A DNA stretch of 38,990 bases from an uncultured Planctomycetales bacterium. Lineage in GTDB: Bacteria > Planctomycetota > Planctomycetia > Isosphaerales > Isosphaeraceae. Under the pieces are notes generated by a model, which saw only the letters and a list, made by a program, of their open reading frames with translations, was not told the DNA's origin and made no database searches. The stretch is taken from contig CAIYJE010000198.1 in the NCBI GenBank assembly GCA_903926465.1, positions 1-38,990 of the forward strand, in the 5' to 3' direction. The position numbers and the translations under genes were made by a program. Below, piece after piece: positions 7,977 through 34,913 of the stretch. The stretch's first letter is position 1, and every line of letters starts with the position of its first letter.

Positions 7977-8087
7977 TACCAAGGTACGTATCCGAACAAA
8001 AACTCCCCGGAATGCGGCCCTGAAAGGGCGGCAAGCCGGGGAGTTATGCAAGGAACCTCGGCGGACAAAGCTTGTCCGCATGCCTGC

Positions 8088-8912
8088 TCAGGGGAACCGC
8101 AGGCTGTCTGGCTGGGAATCGAGGATGACCGGGCCATCGGCGTCGGGGGCCGCCTCGTCGGTAACCGGCTTGACAGCGGGGCGTTTGGCCACGGGGGCAC
8201 CGGCGGTTGCCAAAATATGCCGGAGTTGGTCGGCCGAGGCCGGAACCACCATCTCTTTGTTCGAATTCGCCAGAATTTCTGAAGGGGTCACCGGGGCCGT
8301 GTAATACGCCCAGTCGGCCCTGTGATCGACCGTAGCCACCGAACCGCCCACCACGGCCCCAGCATACAAGCCCTTGCCTCGTGAGTAGGTCATCATGTCG
8401 GCCTTGAAGCGGGGGTCGGTCTCTCCGCCCACGCCGGCCCCAATGGGTCCGGCGGCGGCACTGGCGTCTACACCCAAAGTCATCTTGCCCTGGCCCAGCA
8501 GGAACCGCTCAATCGTCGCCCGTTCCTGGAACACCAGCAGCAGTTCCGAAGAACTGGCACCGATCTGAAGGCCCACGTTGCCGCCGGTCAACGTGATAAA
8601 GAACGGGTTGGACCATTCGCCGGTCATGGTGTCTCGCACCATCACAATGCCCCGGCCGTGCCGGGCACCACCAATGAACCCAACCTGGAGCATGTTCGGA
8701 AACAGGATGACCCCCTGCGAGCCACGAATCACCGGGGCCGGCACACCAAAATCAGGGTCGCGCAACATTGACTGCAGCAGCGCCGCACTTGAGCGAACGA
8801 TATGGTCTTCCTTGGCCTGCTGCTGGGCGAAACCCGGAACCGCCGGGAGCAGGGCAAGCAAACCGAGCAGAAGACCAGAATGGCGTATCATCCGATGACT
8901 GTTAAGCCTCAT
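8088..8912 (-). CDS. secreted SYLF-domain (YSC84-type) lipid-binding protein
   Basis: A 274-residue protein with an N-terminal signal peptide (basic MRLNSHRMIRH, a Leu-rich core, cleavage likely after GFA at about residue 29), so probably periplasmic or secreted. Residues about 35-230 match the SYLF/Ysc84 family: an SSAALLQSML start, GSQGVILFPN, GARHGRGIVMVR, a GxxGLQIGASSSELLLVF core, and a closing YSRGKGLYAGAVVGGSV. SYLF domains bind phosphoinositides in eukaryotes; the bacterial role is not established. The start at 8912 is chosen because GAGGAAGGGA lies just upstream and the signal peptide begins there; the frame is open further upstream. The last 40 residues are Pro/Ala/Asp-rich and probably unstructured. 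It is divergent from trpB and stands alone. Confidence 0.9.
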   Translation of the reverse strand: MRLNSHRMIRHSGLLLGLLALLPAVPGFAQQQAKEDHIVRSSAALLQSMLRDPDFGVPAPVIRGSQGVILFPNMLQVGFIGGARHGRGIVMVRDTMTGEWSNPFFITLTGGNVGLQIGASSSELLLVFQERATIERFLLGQGKMTLGVDASAAAGPIGAGVGGETDPRFKADMMTYSRGKGLYAGAVVGGSVATVDHRADWAYYTAPVTPSEILANSNKEMVVPASADQLRHILATAGAPVAKRPAVKPVTDEAAPDADGPVILDSQPDSLRFP

Positions 8913-9106
8913 GGGAGTCCCTTCCTCAAGGTGGGGTGAGTCGACGGAGTTCGGGCCCAAAAGATCCCCCAACCCCGATTTTCTGTCAACGCCGTTCCCG
9001 ATCGCCTGCCGGCAAACCGCCATCTCAACGCCATACAAAGTGGCGGTTAATTCATTCCGCAAAGCACAATCGGCCAATCACCAGACTCCAAACACCCGTG
9101 ATTCCC

Positions 9107-27454: not shown

Positions 27455-27514
27455 TTCGCCTACACTGACTCGTGGTTGGTTCAAAAACCGCAACGGGAAA
27501 AGGTAGGCCAGGGC

Positions 27515-29011
27515 ATGACTGCAAATCTGTATGACCTGGTTGTGGTGGGGGCCGGTATGGGCGGCCTGGCGCTGGCAGCTCAGGCGCAGCGCAGCGGTCG
27601 ACGTGTGGCCTTGCTGGAATCTCATAGCCATCTCGGCGGCTGCGCGGGCTGGTTTGATCGAGGCCCGTACGTGTTTGACGCGGGTGCAACCGCACTCATG
27701 GGCCTGAGATCGGGCGAACCCCTGGGGCGGTTGCTTGAAGAGATTGGACTCTCTTTCCAAGGTGTTGAAACGCCCAGCTACCGGGTTTATCTTCCGGACC
27801 GCGAAATTGACATTGTGCGCGATGACAACGTCTTTGAACGGGCGATCCAGAGCTGTTTTCCCGGCCAAGAGGCTGCCAAACGCCGGTTCTGGCGATGGCA
27901 AGCCAGGATTGGATCCGAACTGTTCAGGGCGGCCAGCCAGTGCCCAAGACTGAGCTGGCGGAACCCCGCAGACCTGGCTCATGACCTGAGAACGCTGGGA
28001 CCTTCCGGGATTGCCGCGGCCTCCACCTCCTTGATCACCGTGGCGCACGTCCTCAAGCTGCTGGGACTCGCAAATGATCGCCCGTTCCGGACCCTGGTGG
28101 CCATGCTCTTGCAAGACACTGCGCAGGCTGGCCCAGACGTTGTGCCTTTCGCAAATGCCTGCGCCTGCCTTCAGGCCTATCGCCTTGGTATGAGCCGGCC
28201 TGCTGGCGGAATGCGCGCACTGACCGAAGGCATTGGCCAGTGTTTTGCAACGCTTGGCGGTTTACTTCGCACCAGCACCATTGTTGATCGCGTTGATGGG
28301 CCAGACAAACCAGGCCCAGGCCAGCCGTTTGAAGTTTGGACCAGGCGCCGTGAGCGTTTTCTGGCTCGTGAAGTTGCCTTCAACCTACCCGTCGATCGTG
28401 CGGCGAGCCTGCTCGGTCGATCTTTACAGGGCCGATTGGCACGTTGCGAGCGAAAATCCAGGGCCGCCTGGAGCGCCTTCACCGGCTACCTGGCCCTGGA
28501 TCGCGCTGCGATCCCGGATTCTACGCCCCTCTTCCATCAGGTCCTGCAGGATTATGAAGCACCCATTCACGATGGCAATCATGTTCTGATCTCGCTTTCT
28601 CCATTGGAAGATTCTGGATACGGCCCACCAGATACGCGGGTGGCAACACTCTCAACCCACGTCAGACCCGCGGACTGGCTGGAACTCGACCCAACTGCCT
28701 ATCAAACGCGTAAGGCCGAGTATCAATCACGCCTTCTGGGTGCCCTTGACCGGGCCTTTCCCAATGGCTCGTCGGCCCTTCGTCATTCCGAATTTGCCAG
28801 TCCCAGAAGCTTCCTGCGTTACACCCGCAGAAGCCTGGGCGCCGTGGGCGGACCTCCCGTCTCCCGGCGCAACAGCAACCTTCTGGCGGTCGGGGCCGAC
28901 CTGCTGGGACAAGGGCTGTGGCTGGTCGGAGATTCCGTCTTTCCAGGGCAGGGGACCATGGCCGTGGTGCTGTCGGCTCGCCGCGTACTGGAACAGCTTG
29001 CCCCGAGCTAG
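27515..29011 (+). CDS. CrtI/CrtD-like FAD-dependent oxidoreductase
   Basis: A 498-residue flavoprotein of the phytoene-desaturase/carotenoid-isomerase superfamily. The dinucleotide-binding motif is VVVGAGMGGLALAAQAQ (GxGxxG at about 12-17), followed by the usual LLESHSHLGGCAG. PAGGMRALTEGIGQCFATLGG (about 229-249) and the closing WLVGDSVFPGQGTMAVVLSA are family hallmarks. It probably desaturates, oxidises or isomerises a polyene, but the superfamily also includes other amine or hydrocarbon oxidases. The ATG at 27515 is preceded by AGG at acceptable spacing; the TTG at 27476 is unlikely. It follows two GT2 genes, so a glycosylated carotenoid is one hypothesis; no other carotenoid gene is in the window. 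Confidence 0.88.
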   Translation: MTANLYDLVVVGAGMGGLALAAQAQRSGRRVALLESHSHLGGCAGWFDRGPYVFDAGATALMGLRSGEPLGRLLEEIGLSFQGVETPSYRVYLPDREIDIVRDDNVFERAIQSCFPGQEAAKRRFWRWQARIGSELFRAASQCPRLSWRNPADLAHDLRTLGPSGIAAASTSLITVAHVLKLLGLANDRPFRTLVAMLLQDTAQAGPDVVPFANACACLQAYRLGMSRPAGGMRALTEGIGQCFATLGGLLRTSTIVDRVDGPDKPGPGQPFEVWTRRRERFLAREVAFNLPVDRAASLLGRSLQGRLARCERKSRAAWSAFTGYLALDRAAIPDSTPLFHQVLQDYEAPIHDGNHVLISLSPLEDSGYGPPDTRVATLSTHVRPADWLELDPTAYQTRKAEYQSRLLGALDRAFPNGSSALRHSEFASPRSFLRYTRRSLGAVGGPPVSRRNSNLLAVGADLLGQGLWLVGDSVFPGQGTMAVVLSARRVLEQLAPS

Positions 29012-29365
29012 CGCGGTTTTCGGTTGCAGCACGCTCCGGTATCCGATGCCAGCCCGAATCGCAAGTTTTGAAGTTGCGGACTTGGGATTAGTGCCCGCAC
29101 ACTTGCAGCAGACGCTCCTGAACATAGTTTCGCGTTGCGTTTCGCAGGGCCAAGTCATGTGGAACGCAAAGGCGAACCGCAATAATCAGGATTCAGCCCC
29201 GTCATACACGAAGCTGGCGTCCCAGTGAACAGCGCGGCGGAATCACCAGTTTTCGGTCAATTTAAGCCATATTGGCGATAAACTTACCCCCAAGACCCGC
29301 CTCATGATGAACTTTAGGCTCATCGTGTCAACCTACGGCAACATGCCCAACACAACTGCAAAAAA

Positions 29366-29504
29366 GGGCTCCACCTTCAGCACTCCGAGCCCTATACTTG
29401 GGCCATCGCCGCTAAGGCACCAAGCCACGCGGGCGCTTCCTTTGGATTTGGCAGAGGCTCGGGGGGGTCCCTTCCAGATTTGAGGAAACGCCCGCGTTTT
29501 TTTT
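29366..29504 (+). ncRNA. candidate structured RNA or leader with terminal hairpin
   Basis: Three consecutive hairpins: GGGCTC/GAGCCC (29366-29371 with 29387-29392), CTTGGGCC/GGCACCAAG (29397-29404 with 29416-29424, one bulge) and CGCGGGCG/CGCCCGCG (29428-29435 with 29489-29496, extended inward by TTCC/GGAA). The last is followed by eight T. It does not match any RNA family I can recognise; the SRP RNA core and T-box elements are absent. It ends about 100 bases before the start of a BshB1-like gene. It could be a small RNA with its own terminator or a leader that attenuates that gene. Confidence 0.45.
29428..29504 (+). terminator. strong Rho-independent terminator with large loop
   Basis: A perfect 8-bp GC stem (29428-29435 with 29489-29496), extended outward by an A-T pair and inward, after one mismatch, by TTCC/GGAA, is directly followed by TTTTTTTT (29497-29504). 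The loop is about 43 bases and may fold further. It can end transcripts from the CrtI-like gene or from an RNA beginning near 29360. Confidence 0.7.
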
Positions 29505-29607
29505 ATTCAGGATAGACTATCAACGGCAGGGACAGCCCCCAGCGCCATTTGTGATCTGTCCCGCGAGATTTGAAACCCTATCCACCTCTGTTTCATGGGA
29601 TGATCGC

Positions 29608-30327
29608 GTGGCAGAGTCACATGATGCTTGGCCTGCGCTCGATGCACTGATTGTGGCACCACACCCCGATGATGCGGAACTGGGAGTGGGGGGCACGATC
29701 GTTCGCCTGCAAGAACAAGGATGGCGCGTTGGGATTTTGGACCTGACCAGTGGAGAACCGACTCCGCTTGGCTCGCCCGCACGGCGGATCCAGGAGACCG
29801 AGGCCGCAAACCATGCGCTGGGGAACCCCTGGCGGTTCAATCTTGGGCTCCCGAACCGTGATCTGGAACCCACGCTGGCCCACCGACGGGCCGTTGCCGA
29901 GGTCTTCCGCAGGACCAAGCCTCGACTTTTGTTTGCGCCCTACTGGGAAGACGCCCACCCAGACCACCTGGCTGCCACCCGACTGGTGGAAGACGCCCGC
30001 TTCTGGTCCAAGCTCTCAAAATCTGACCTGCGAGGCGCTCCGCATCACCCGGCTCGGGTTTTGTATTACTTCAGCGTGCACCTGAGGATCGTTGAGCGGC
30101 CCAGCTTTGTGCTGGATATCAGCTCTGCGGCAGACGCCAAACGCGCAGCGGTGGAGGCGTACCGTTCTCAACTGATTGAGAATCAGCCTGGCGGGCGACC
30201 AGGCGTGATCGACGCCGTCTTTGATCGGACCCGGTTCTGGGGCCATCTGGTGGGCGTACAGCACGCAGAGCCGTTCGCAAGCCGAGAGCCGATCGGCCTG
30301 GCCAAGCTCGATTCACTGCTGCTCTAA
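29608..30327 (+). CDS. PIG-L family deacetylase, BshB1-like
   Basis: A 239-residue zinc deacetylase of the LmbE/PIG-L family. The zinc motif APHPDDAELGVGGT (His19, Asp22) and EDAHPDHLAATRLVEDARFWSKL (the third ligand His) are visible. The conserved VHLRIVERPSFVLDIS, YRSQL and FWGHLVGVQHAEPF segments match the bacillithiol-synthesis deacetylase BshB1, which removes acetyl from GlcNAc-malate. I do not see bshA or bshC in this window, so another N-acetylglucosamine substrate is possible. The GTG at 29608 is chosen; the frame extends to a GTG at 29551 but the family normally begins just before LDALIVAPHPDD. It converges on purN with a gap of 31 bases. Confidence 0.88.
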   Translation: MAESHDAWPALDALIVAPHPDDAELGVGGTIVRLQEQGWRVGILDLTSGEPTPLGSPARRIQETEAANHALGNPWRFNLGLPNRDLEPTLAHRRAVAEVFRRTKPRLLFAPYWEDAHPDHLAATRLVEDARFWSKLSKSDLRGAPHHPARVLYYFSVHLRIVERPSFVLDISSAADAKRAAVEAYRSQLIENQPGGRPGVIDAVFDRTRFWGHLVGVQHAEPFASREPIGLAKLDSLLL

Positions 30328-30358: not shown

Positions 30359-31012
30359 TCAGCCCAGGGTGGTTCTGACACGCCGCCCTTCAACTTTGAG
30401 CCGCCCCAGCCGATACAGCTCGATCACCTCGGGAAGCACGTCACACTCGGCTGCAAACACCCGGGCCGCCAGGGAAGCCGGTGTATCGTCATCCAGAACA
30501 GGAACCACCTTCTGGCTGACAATCGGTCCGGTGTCATAGGTATCGTCGGCAATGTGGACCGTGCAGCCAGATACCTTCACGCCCACCTCAAGAGCCGCGC
30601 GATGGACGGCTTCGCCATGAAAGCCCCGTCCGCAGAAGGCCGGGATCAGAGACGGGTGAATGTTCAGCACCTTGTGGTGAAAGCGTGCCTCGATCGGCAG
30701 CAACGAGAGAAAGCCTCCCAGAATCACCAGATCGGTCTGGTGAGACTCAATGGCTTCGAATACCAATCGGCTGAACTCCGCACGCTCCAGACCGGCCTTG
30801 GTAACCACCACGGCCGGCAGCCCAGCACGCTCGGCTCGCTCAATCGCACCAATTCCCGGTCGATCGGCGATCACCACCGAGATTTCCGCAAGCAGATCCC
30901 CGTGCTGAATCCGGTCGATCAGGTTTTGGAGCGTGGTCCCGCCGCCAGAAACACAGACTGCAATCCGGATCGGCGATCCAATCATGGGCGGGGTGCGGGG
31001 ATAACTCGTCAT
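30359..31012 (-). CDS. purN: phosphoribosylglycinamide formyltransferase
   Basis: A 217-residue GAR transformylase: transfers formyl from 10-formyl-tetrahydrofolate to GAR in purine synthesis. Key residues: VSGGGTTLQNLID (phosphate loop), NIHPSLIPAFCGRGFHG with Asn117 and His119 of the catalytic centre, and DDTYDTGPIVSQ with Asp160 (Asn106, His108 and Asp144 in E. coli). Start: ATG at 31012 with AAGGTGAG upstream; an internal ATG nine codons later is less likely. It is the last gene of a minus-strand series, 83 bases after the small secreted-protein gene. Confidence 0.96.
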   Translation of the reverse strand: MTSYPRTPPMIGSPIRIAVCVSGGGTTLQNLIDRIQHGDLLAEISVVIADRPGIGAIERAERAGLPAVVVTKAGLERAEFSRLVFEAIESHQTDLVILGGFLSLLPIEARFHHKVLNIHPSLIPAFCGRGFHGEAVHRAALEVGVKVSGCTVHIADDTYDTGPIVSQKVVPVLDDDTPASLAARVFAAECDVLPEVIELYRLGRLKVEGRRVRTTLG

Positions 31013-31847: not shown

Positions 31848-34661
31848 TCAGGCCGGAGCCAGACCGATTTCCCGGATCACCCCCACGCAGCGTTCACACA
31901 GGGTAGGATTGGCAGCATCTAAGCCCACGGTCGAACGCAAATTCCAGCAGCGTTCACACTTCGGGCAAGCCGAACGGTCTGCGACCACGCCCCGGGCCCC
32001 CTCAGACTCCTCCCGAACCTCGACTTCCGAGACCACACAAAGCGTGGTCAGCAGCTCTCGATGAGCGTCCAGGTACGCCGCCTGCTCGGGCTCTGCATAG
32101 ACCGTCAACCGGGCTTCCTGATTACTGCCAACCCTCTTGGCCTTCCGCAGCGCTTCAATGGCAATGAACGCTTCTTCACGTAAACCCAGCAGTTTTGTGA
32201 ACATCTCAGCCCGCGCGGGGTTGTCCCAGCGGGGCTCGGGCTGAGGCCATCTGGCCAGGTGAACACTGGAAGGGTGCCCAGGCTTGGCCGCCGGTACGTA
32301 GTCCCAGATCTCTTCGGTGGTATGCGGAATGAACGGAGCCAGCAGGATCGTCAGATCGTGGTGCAAGCGAGCAAGCACGAACTGGGCGGCCTGCCGGTGC
32401 CTGCCCCCAGGGCTTTCCGCGTAGAGGCGATCTTTGAGCACGTCCAGGTAAACACTGGAAAGCGTCACGGCGCAGAACTGGTAAATTCGCTGGTAGGCCT
32501 TGTAGAACTCGAACCGCTCGAGCGCCTCGGTGACCTCACGAATCACGCCGTTGAGCTGGCCGAGCACCCACAGGTCGATCTCCTGAAGCGTATCAGGATC
32601 TATCGCCTCAGGGTCAAAGCTGGTGTAGTCGCCCAGATTCCCAAGGATGAACCGGAACGTGTTCCGGATTTTGCGGTACGCCTCGGACGCCTCTTTGATA
32701 CCCCGCTCACTCATCCGGACATCGTCCGCGTAATCCATGCTTAGCACGTACAGACGAAGCACATCGGCCCCGTACTGCTCGGTGGCTTTCACCGCCTGGA
32801 TCACGTTACCGACCGACTTCGACATCTTCTCACCCTTGTCGTCTACCACGAACCCGTGGGTGAGCACGTTCTCAAATGGGGCACGGCCGGTACTGCCCAC
32901 GGCCGTCAGAATCGACGACTGGAACCAGCCTCGATGCTGGTCAGACCCTTCCAGGTACAGGTAAGCCGGGTAGCCTAGCTCAAAATTCTGCGCCAGCACG
33001 GCCCGATGGCTTGAGCCCGACTCAAACCAGACATCAAGAATGTCGGTCCCCTTGCGGAGATGCTCAAGCGGGAAACGGACTGGATCTAGATCGGGAGGCA
33101 CAAGTTCGGCGACCGGTTTTTGGTACCAGGCGTCGGCCCCTTCACGGCGAAACAGATCACGAAAGAATCGCACCGATTCCGCCGTGAGGTGATGCTCTTC
33201 GGTTTGCTCATTGTACAGGCTGGGGATGGGCACCCCCCAGGCGCGCTGGCGACTGACACACCAGTCGGGACGATTGGACACCATCCCCTCGATCCGGGCC
33301 TGACCCCATGACGGCATCCAGCCGACCTCTTCGGCAATCACTCGCATGGTTCGCTTGCGCAGATCCGAGTGATCCACCGCAATGAACCACTGGGCCGTGG
33401 CTCGGAAGATCACCGGCTTCTTGCAGCGCCAGCAATGCGGATAACTGTGACTGTACGAGAACCCGTGATACAGGGCCCCAATCGTACGCAGATGCTCAAC
33501 AATCACGGAATTGGATTGAAACACCCCCTGACCGACCAGCCAATCTGGGGCCTCTGTGGTATACCGGCCGGCACCGTCCACCGGACTGAGCGTTGGCAAG
33601 TGGTAGGTCTGACCGGTCCGATAGTCTTCAGCACCGTGCCCTGGGGCCGTATGCACCAGGCCTGTGCCATCTTCTACCGTCACATAATCTGCCAGCACCA
33701 GCGGGCCGGTTCGCTCGATGAACACGTGCCGGTACTGACCGTGCTCCAGTTGTGCGCCGGTGCAGCGGCCCACCTCGGACCACTCGGTCACGCTCCGGAG
33801 CCCCATCACCTTCTCTACCAGCTCCGAAGCCAGCACCGTGTGGACTGGCTGGCCCGTGGTGGGGTCGGTGTAGCGGATTCCGCTGTAGGTGAGTTCAGGG
33901 TGCGCGGCAATGGCAACGTTGGCGGGCAGCGTCCACGGGGTGGTGGTCCAGATCATCAGGTGCCAGGGGCCCTCACCCCAACCTTCTGGAACCCCGTTGA
34001 CCAGCGGAAAATTCACGTACACGCTTAGCGAAGTTTCATCGTGGTACTCAAGTTCCGCCTCTGCCAGGGCGGTGCGGTCCTGAATACACCAGTGAATTGG
34101 CTTGAGCTGGCGAAAGACATAGCCGCCTTCCACCAAGTCGGACAGCACGTCCAGAATGCTCCCCTCGTAACCAGGGTCCAAGGTCAGGTAGGGGTGCTTC
34201 CAATCACCCAGAATTCCGAGCCTTTGAAACTGGGAACGCTGAATATCGACCCACTTGAGCGCTTCAACCCGGCACTTCTCGCGAATTTCAGAGGCGGAAA
34301 GCCCACTGGCCTTGGAGCCAAGCGCCTTCATCACCGTATGCTCGATCGGCAGTCCATGACAGTCCCAGCCCGGCACGTACGGGCTGTCAAACCCGCGCAA
34401 GGAGAGGAACCGGACCACGGCATCCTTGAGCACCTTGTTGAGCAGGTGTCCCATATGGATATCGCCGTTGGCGTAGGGCGGGCCGTCATGCAGCACCCGT
34501 TTGGCATGCCCCTGGCGAGCCTGGCGAATTTGGCCGTACAGATCCTGTTCACGCCATCGCTCTTGAATTTGCGGCTCGCGAACGCCCAGGTTCGCCTTCA
34601 TGTCGAACCGGGTGACAGGCAGATTCAGCGTGTCCTTGTAATTCTTCGCTGGAGTCGACAT
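31848..34661 (-). CDS. ileS: isoleucyl-tRNA synthetase
   Basis: A 937-residue class I synthetase that charges tRNA-Ile in the cytoplasm, with editing. The HIGH-type motif is PYANGDIHMGH (about 62-72), the WDCHGLPIEH segment follows, an editing (CP1) domain lies at about 190-400, and KMSKSVGN at about 610 is the KMSKS loop. The C-terminal zinc-binding part contains CPKCERCW and LCERC (about 900-925), as in the bacterial type. The ATG at 34661 has AGAAGG upstream at good spacing; an ATG at 34670 is an alternative, and the frame stays open to 34733. Length is normal. It follows a purine nucleoside phosphorylase gene with a gap of about 250 bases. Confidence 0.98.
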   Translation of the reverse strand: MSTPAKNYKDTLNLPVTRFDMKANLGVREPQIQERWREQDLYGQIRQARQGHAKRVLHDGPPYANGDIHMGHLLNKVLKDAVVRFLSLRGFDSPYVPGWDCHGLPIEHTVMKALGSKASGLSASEIREKCRVEALKWVDIQRSQFQRLGILGDWKHPYLTLDPGYEGSILDVLSDLVEGGYVFRQLKPIHWCIQDRTALAEAELEYHDETSLSVYVNFPLVNGVPEGWGEGPWHLMIWTTTPWTLPANVAIAAHPELTYSGIRYTDPTTGQPVHTVLASELVEKVMGLRSVTEWSEVGRCTGAQLEHGQYRHVFIERTGPLVLADYVTVEDGTGLVHTAPGHGAEDYRTGQTYHLPTLSPVDGAGRYTTEAPDWLVGQGVFQSNSVIVEHLRTIGALYHGFSYSHSYPHCWRCKKPVIFRATAQWFIAVDHSDLRKRTMRVIAEEVGWMPSWGQARIEGMVSNRPDWCVSRQRAWGVPIPSLYNEQTEEHHLTAESVRFFRDLFRREGADAWYQKPVAELVPPDLDPVRFPLEHLRKGTDILDVWFESGSSHRAVLAQNFELGYPAYLYLEGSDQHRGWFQSSILTAVGSTGRAPFENVLTHGFVVDDKGEKMSKSVGNVIQAVKATEQYGADVLRLYVLSMDYADDVRMSERGIKEASEAYRKIRNTFRFILGNLGDYTSFDPEAIDPDTLQEIDLWVLGQLNGVIREVTEALERFEFYKAYQRIYQFCAVTLSSVYLDVLKDRLYAESPGGRHRQAAQFVLARLHHDLTILLAPFIPHTTEEIWDYVPAAKPGHPSSVHLARWPQPEPRWDNPARAEMFTKLLGLREEAFIAIEALRKAKRVGSNQEARLTVYAEPEQAAYLDAHRELLTTLCVVSEVEVREESEGARGVVADRSACPKCERCWNLRSTVGLDAANPTLCERCVGVIREIGLAPA

Positions 34662-34913
34662 CGCGGACATGCCTTCTAGGTAGAGCTCAACCCTGGAGCA
34701 GAACGAACCGGGTCCAGTTTGGGCAACTCCCACTGGACCGCCATTGAAACCCAGCCGTAGTACTTACGCGTCTGGAAACGAGAGAGAGCGACCCTCGCAA
34801 CCGGCGATACTCTGACTCATTTGGAGTCAACGTATCACGTCTGGCAAATCAAGGCGAAACTTGCCGCCTGATCCAGGCTACCGGATGAGTTCAAGCAGGG
34901 CCAGTGAAAGGTT

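Follow-up and report, generated by a model that had tools for sequence, protein, structure and literature searches.

A strong hairpin with a T-tract between a crtD-like gene and bshB1 in an Isosphaeraceae planctomycete, a probable intrinsic terminator

The crtD-like–bshB1 locus and its three hairpins

The DNA analysed here, a stretch of 38,990 nt (the window), belongs to the 6.9-Mb genome of a planctomycete of the family Isosphaeraceae (207 contigs; completeness 99.7%), which was the sole representative of its genus among the genomes compared. The family includes Singulisphaera and Aquisphaera among its named members. The local gene order is a crtD-like gene (27476–29011) and, after a gap, bshB1 (29608–30327), both on the plus strand, followed by purN (30359–31012) and ileS (31848–34733) on the minus strand. 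The crtD-like gene encodes an oxidoreductase resembling CrtD/CrtI-family carotenoid desaturases; it scored 227.8 bits with TIGR02733 against a cut-off of 549.7 and passed no equivalog cut-off, and its name here denotes family resemblance only. The downstream gene, described as a BshB1-like PIG-L deacetylase in the first-pass annotation, is supported as a bacillithiol biosynthesis deacetylase by TIGR04001 (204.6 bits; cut-off, 182.5). GTG 29608 is a likelier start for it than GTG 29551, because homologues align from residue 22–30 on and codon usage favours the former. With this start, the distance of about 100 bases between the hairpins and the deacetylase gene given in the first-pass annotation is right.

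The segment with the hairpins was confirmed to be free of genes. For the whole gap (29012–29607), no Pfam match that might betray a decayed or hidden gene was obtained with ten stop-to-stop frames, and no plasmid or phage match was found. A literature search returned nothing on the crtD-bshB1 locus.

All three successive hairpins reported previously are present. The 181-nt segment that contains them folds as a whole at −66.5 kcal/mol (z −3.3), and 0 of 200 shuffled sequences were as stable. Hairpin 1 (29365–29393), to which no strand was assigned, has a 7-bp stem and a 15-nt loop. On the plus strand it folds at −11.3 kcal/mol (z −3.4; 2 of 500 shuffles as stable), with pair probabilities of 0.83–0.99, and on the minus strand its z-score is −1.8. 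Since six A residues (29360–29365) lie on its left side, hairpin 1 resembles a weak terminator for transcripts of the minus strand; on that strand, no gene requiring such a site was seen. Hairpin 2 (29397–29424, plus strand; −9.5 kcal/mol, z −1.5) is weak and within chance expectation, 42 of 500 shuffles being as stable. Hairpin 3 (29427–29497, plus strand) is a long, near-perfect stem of 9+6+7+2+5 bp with a folding energy of −42.9 kcal/mol (z −5.1), which was reached by none of 500 dinucleotide shuffles, and its basal pairs had probabilities of 0.86–1.0 in all contexts tried. It is the only statistically solid hairpin of the three. It runs directly into a tract of eight T residues (T8; 29497–29504), the presumed 3′ end of a plus-strand transcript, and thus has the terminator-like form ascribed to it in the first-pass annotation. 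When 95-nt segments taken at random from the genome were placed before T8, a hairpin of −40 kcal/mol or better arose in 0 of 600 cases. A pattern search had matched a GCGGGCG/CGCCCGC stem with two tRNAs; ARAGORN finds no tRNA here, and the tRNA-like reading was dropped.

RNA families, related genomes and promoter candidates

The segment had been described as matching no known RNA class, and the covariance-model search proposed at that time bears this out: Rfam scans of the window and of the region matched no family here, either at the gathering score or at E values up to 10. Two widespread candidates were rejected individually. The 6S RNA model (RF00013) had no match in the window or in the host genome, although the same search recovered the controls in E. 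coli and B. subtilis, and the bacterial SRP RNA of the host (RF00169) matches on a different contig, at C67:68783–68880 with 55.5 bits.

The hairpin element occurs once in the host genome, and conservation of the hairpins in relatives, which the first-pass annotation had named as a check, was not seen: DNA, BLAST and Infernal searches returned no credible homologue. At the DNA level, covering 40 relatives and 397 class-level genomes, only three stretches of 27–39 nt were found besides the element itself. One (L140) falls within an open frame, another (L139) lies in surroundings unrelated to the crtD-bshB1 locus, and the third (L138) stands directly before a gene start in a genome of another family; none of them was taken for a homologue, and the matches are either chance or unexplained. 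A structure model, R1, also retrieved no credible homologue from 45 genomes of the family, with one sub-threshold match at E 0.1; the model was built from essentially one sequence and is weak for distant relatives, which it could miss. The L138 stretch involves the 27-nt GCGGAATCACCAGTTTTCGGTCAATTT (29237–29263), which recurs with one mismatch at L138:1501–1527, where it directly precedes an opposite-strand ATG of this class-level relative; the gene that follows is presumably proA-like. The core of GCGGAATCACCAGTTTTCGGTCAATTT was present at one mismatch in 3 of the 397 genomes, and its recurrence may reflect either chance or a shared upstream motif.

About 15 distinct relatives retain the order crtD > bshB1. 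In most of them, 100–220 nt separate the end of the crtD match from the conserved start of BshB1, compared with about 600 nt in the host, and most of these gaps hold no comparable hairpin with a T-run. In one of the relatives, L008, the gap measures 600 nt and its sequence is unrelated. For at least eight relatives, the best or a good match was a sigma-70-like site with its −10 element 51–63 nt before the conserved BshB1 codon, for example TTGTCG-17-TAGCAT (L050), TTGTCT-17-TAGCCT (L030) and TTGCCC-17-AATAAT (L006). Guided by these positions, we placed by eye a candidate bshB1 promoter in the host, CTGTCC-17-TATCCA (29556–29584, plus strand), with its −10 element 59 nt before the conserved codon and on the 3′ side of T8. 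The site is weak and lies outside the top-scoring sites of the window scan. The best plus-strand score in the promoter scan was 7.6 versus a shuffle median of 7.5, with a consensus that may differ from planctomycete promoters. On the minus strand, TTGACA-16-CATCAT (29304–29331) points leftward, antisense to the end of the crtD-like gene, and scored 8.7; shuffled sequence reached 9.0 in the same scan.

Hairpins and T-runs across the host genome

Terminators were compared in a 394-kb sample of the host genome. Among its 126 T-runs of at least six residues, T8 has the most stable adjoining hairpin, and with T8, hairpin 3 is the best textbook terminator case in the sample. Ordinary intrinsic terminators were seen elsewhere in the host, such as those at L128:18205 and L121:12003, 52–63 nt past a same-strand stop codon. 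Most other terminators lay roughly 17–90 nt from such a stop, whereas T8 is about 490 nt downstream of the stop of the crtD-like gene.

Long stable intergenic hairpins are common in the host, and several lie at the 3′ ends of genes. Genes in the same 394 kb were predicted with a simple script based on codon usage; among the 162 gaps between them, the share with a hairpin of −35 kcal/mol or better was 41% for convergent, 21% for codirectional and 8% for divergent gaps. The excess stability over shuffled gaps differed between convergent and divergent gaps (p = 0.0003). In the host, strong hairpins thus concentrate at the 3′ ends of genes, and hairpin 3 accordingly fits an ordinary intrinsic terminator.

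Two further kinds of hairpin were recorded. Within the window, two adjacent strong hairpins (8001–8080; −48.0 kcal/mol per 80 nt) lie in the gap adjoining a minus-strand gene (8088–9077), and no long T-run follows them. In the genome at large, the dispersed palindrome GACAGCCGCCCNCGGCTGTC has 127 copies at no more than one mismatch (reversed control, 0), often in inverted pairs about 47 nt apart (e.g. L128:18911–18990 and L132:18681–18760), and resembles REP/BIME elements; no copy was found in the 38,990-nt window.

Interpretation of hairpin 3 and T8

We consider it likely that hairpin 3 and T8 form a plus-strand intrinsic (Rho-independent) terminator that is very strong but otherwise ordinary, of a type often met at the ends of genes in this bacterium. 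RNA polymerase would arrive from the left, carrying either the crtD-like mRNA or a short untranslated RNA that originates in the preceding 355-base gap; the GC-rich stem would fold once transcribed, and the polymerase would be released at T8, near 29504. Transcription of bshB1 would then start from a separate promoter, located within 29505–29608. With this promoter 3′ of T8, the hairpins would be absent from the bshB1 mRNA, and the terminator would serve as an insulator that shields bshB1. Actual termination, the identity of the transcript that ends here and the bshB1 promoter are all inferred from the sequence.

Hairpin 3 shares with intrinsic terminators a GC-rich stem immediately before a T-tract and a same-strand gene upstream, and a stem of this stability next to T8 is rare by chance. 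The lack of an effective competitor helix upstream, the short gaps of relatives with the same gene order and the promoter-like sites next to their bshB1 genes all speak for termination here, as does the fact that strong hairpins of the host mark gene 3′ ends. On the other side stand the roughly 490 nt that separate T8 from the closest stop codon upstream and the weak, unranked bshB1 promoter candidate. The stem, some 29 bp long and interrupted by small internal loops, also exceeds the usual 7–12 bp, although the host has comparably long intergenic hairpins.

The distance from the crtD-like stop would be explained if T8 ended a separate short transcript. A lineage-specific small RNA of about 140–250 nt, found only in this genus between crtD and bshB1, would start between 29240 and about 29366, fold into hairpins 1–3, end at T8 and act by base pairing or protein binding. 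The gene-free segment, its structure beyond chance and a crtD-bshB1 gap far longer than in most relatives are in keeping with such an RNA, and a short structured intergenic segment closed by a hairpin and T8 is also what trans-acting sRNAs with a 3′ terminator look like. In contrast to these, however, the segment has no plus-strand promoter better than shuffled sequence and no homologue, whether by DNA search in the 397 class genomes or by structure model in the 45 genomes of the family, and hairpin 2 does not exceed chance. We regard this small RNA as unlikely. Besides a small RNA, the first-pass annotation had suggested a riboswitch-like attenuator on the strength of the position. Such a riboswitch or attenuator would act in cis within the bshB1 leader, with hairpins 1 and 2 as the sensor and hairpin 3 as the terminator, and a same-strand terminator some 100 nt ahead of a biosynthetic gene is a feature it would share with known devices of this type. 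Control of this kind would require a promoter upstream of 29366, whereas the candidate bshB1 promoter lies 3′ of T8. Known terminator-type riboswitches also have a conserved sensor and an antiterminator. Here, relatives with the same gene order have no structured leader of this kind before bshB1, no described class matches, and no upstream segment is predicted to displace hairpin 3. The best antiterminator candidate, near 29077–29106, is 320 nt off, and no antiterminator is evident because the probability of the terminator helix stays near 1 with any upstream stretch. Since the element is missing in relatives, their promoter-like sites lie nearer to bshB1 and an antiterminator is lacking, the attenuator is not supported, and we judge it very improbable. 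Hardly credible is an element acting only at the DNA level that plays no part in transcription, such as a dispersed palindromic repeat or a mobile-element end. The host does abound in dispersed palindromes, one of them in 127 copies, and its crtD-bshB1 gap is longer than that of relatives; hairpin 3, however, is single-copy, matches nothing in plasmids, phages or viral contigs and carries T8 on one side only.

If hairpin 3 and T8 are an intrinsic terminator, crtD and bshB1 are presumably transcribed as separate units in this lineage, which would add little beyond annotation. Strong hairpins near gene ends are general in this genome, so that a stable intergenic hairpin is by itself weak evidence for a regulatory RNA here. 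If a short transcript does exist at this locus, it would join the small number of sRNAs known in the family.
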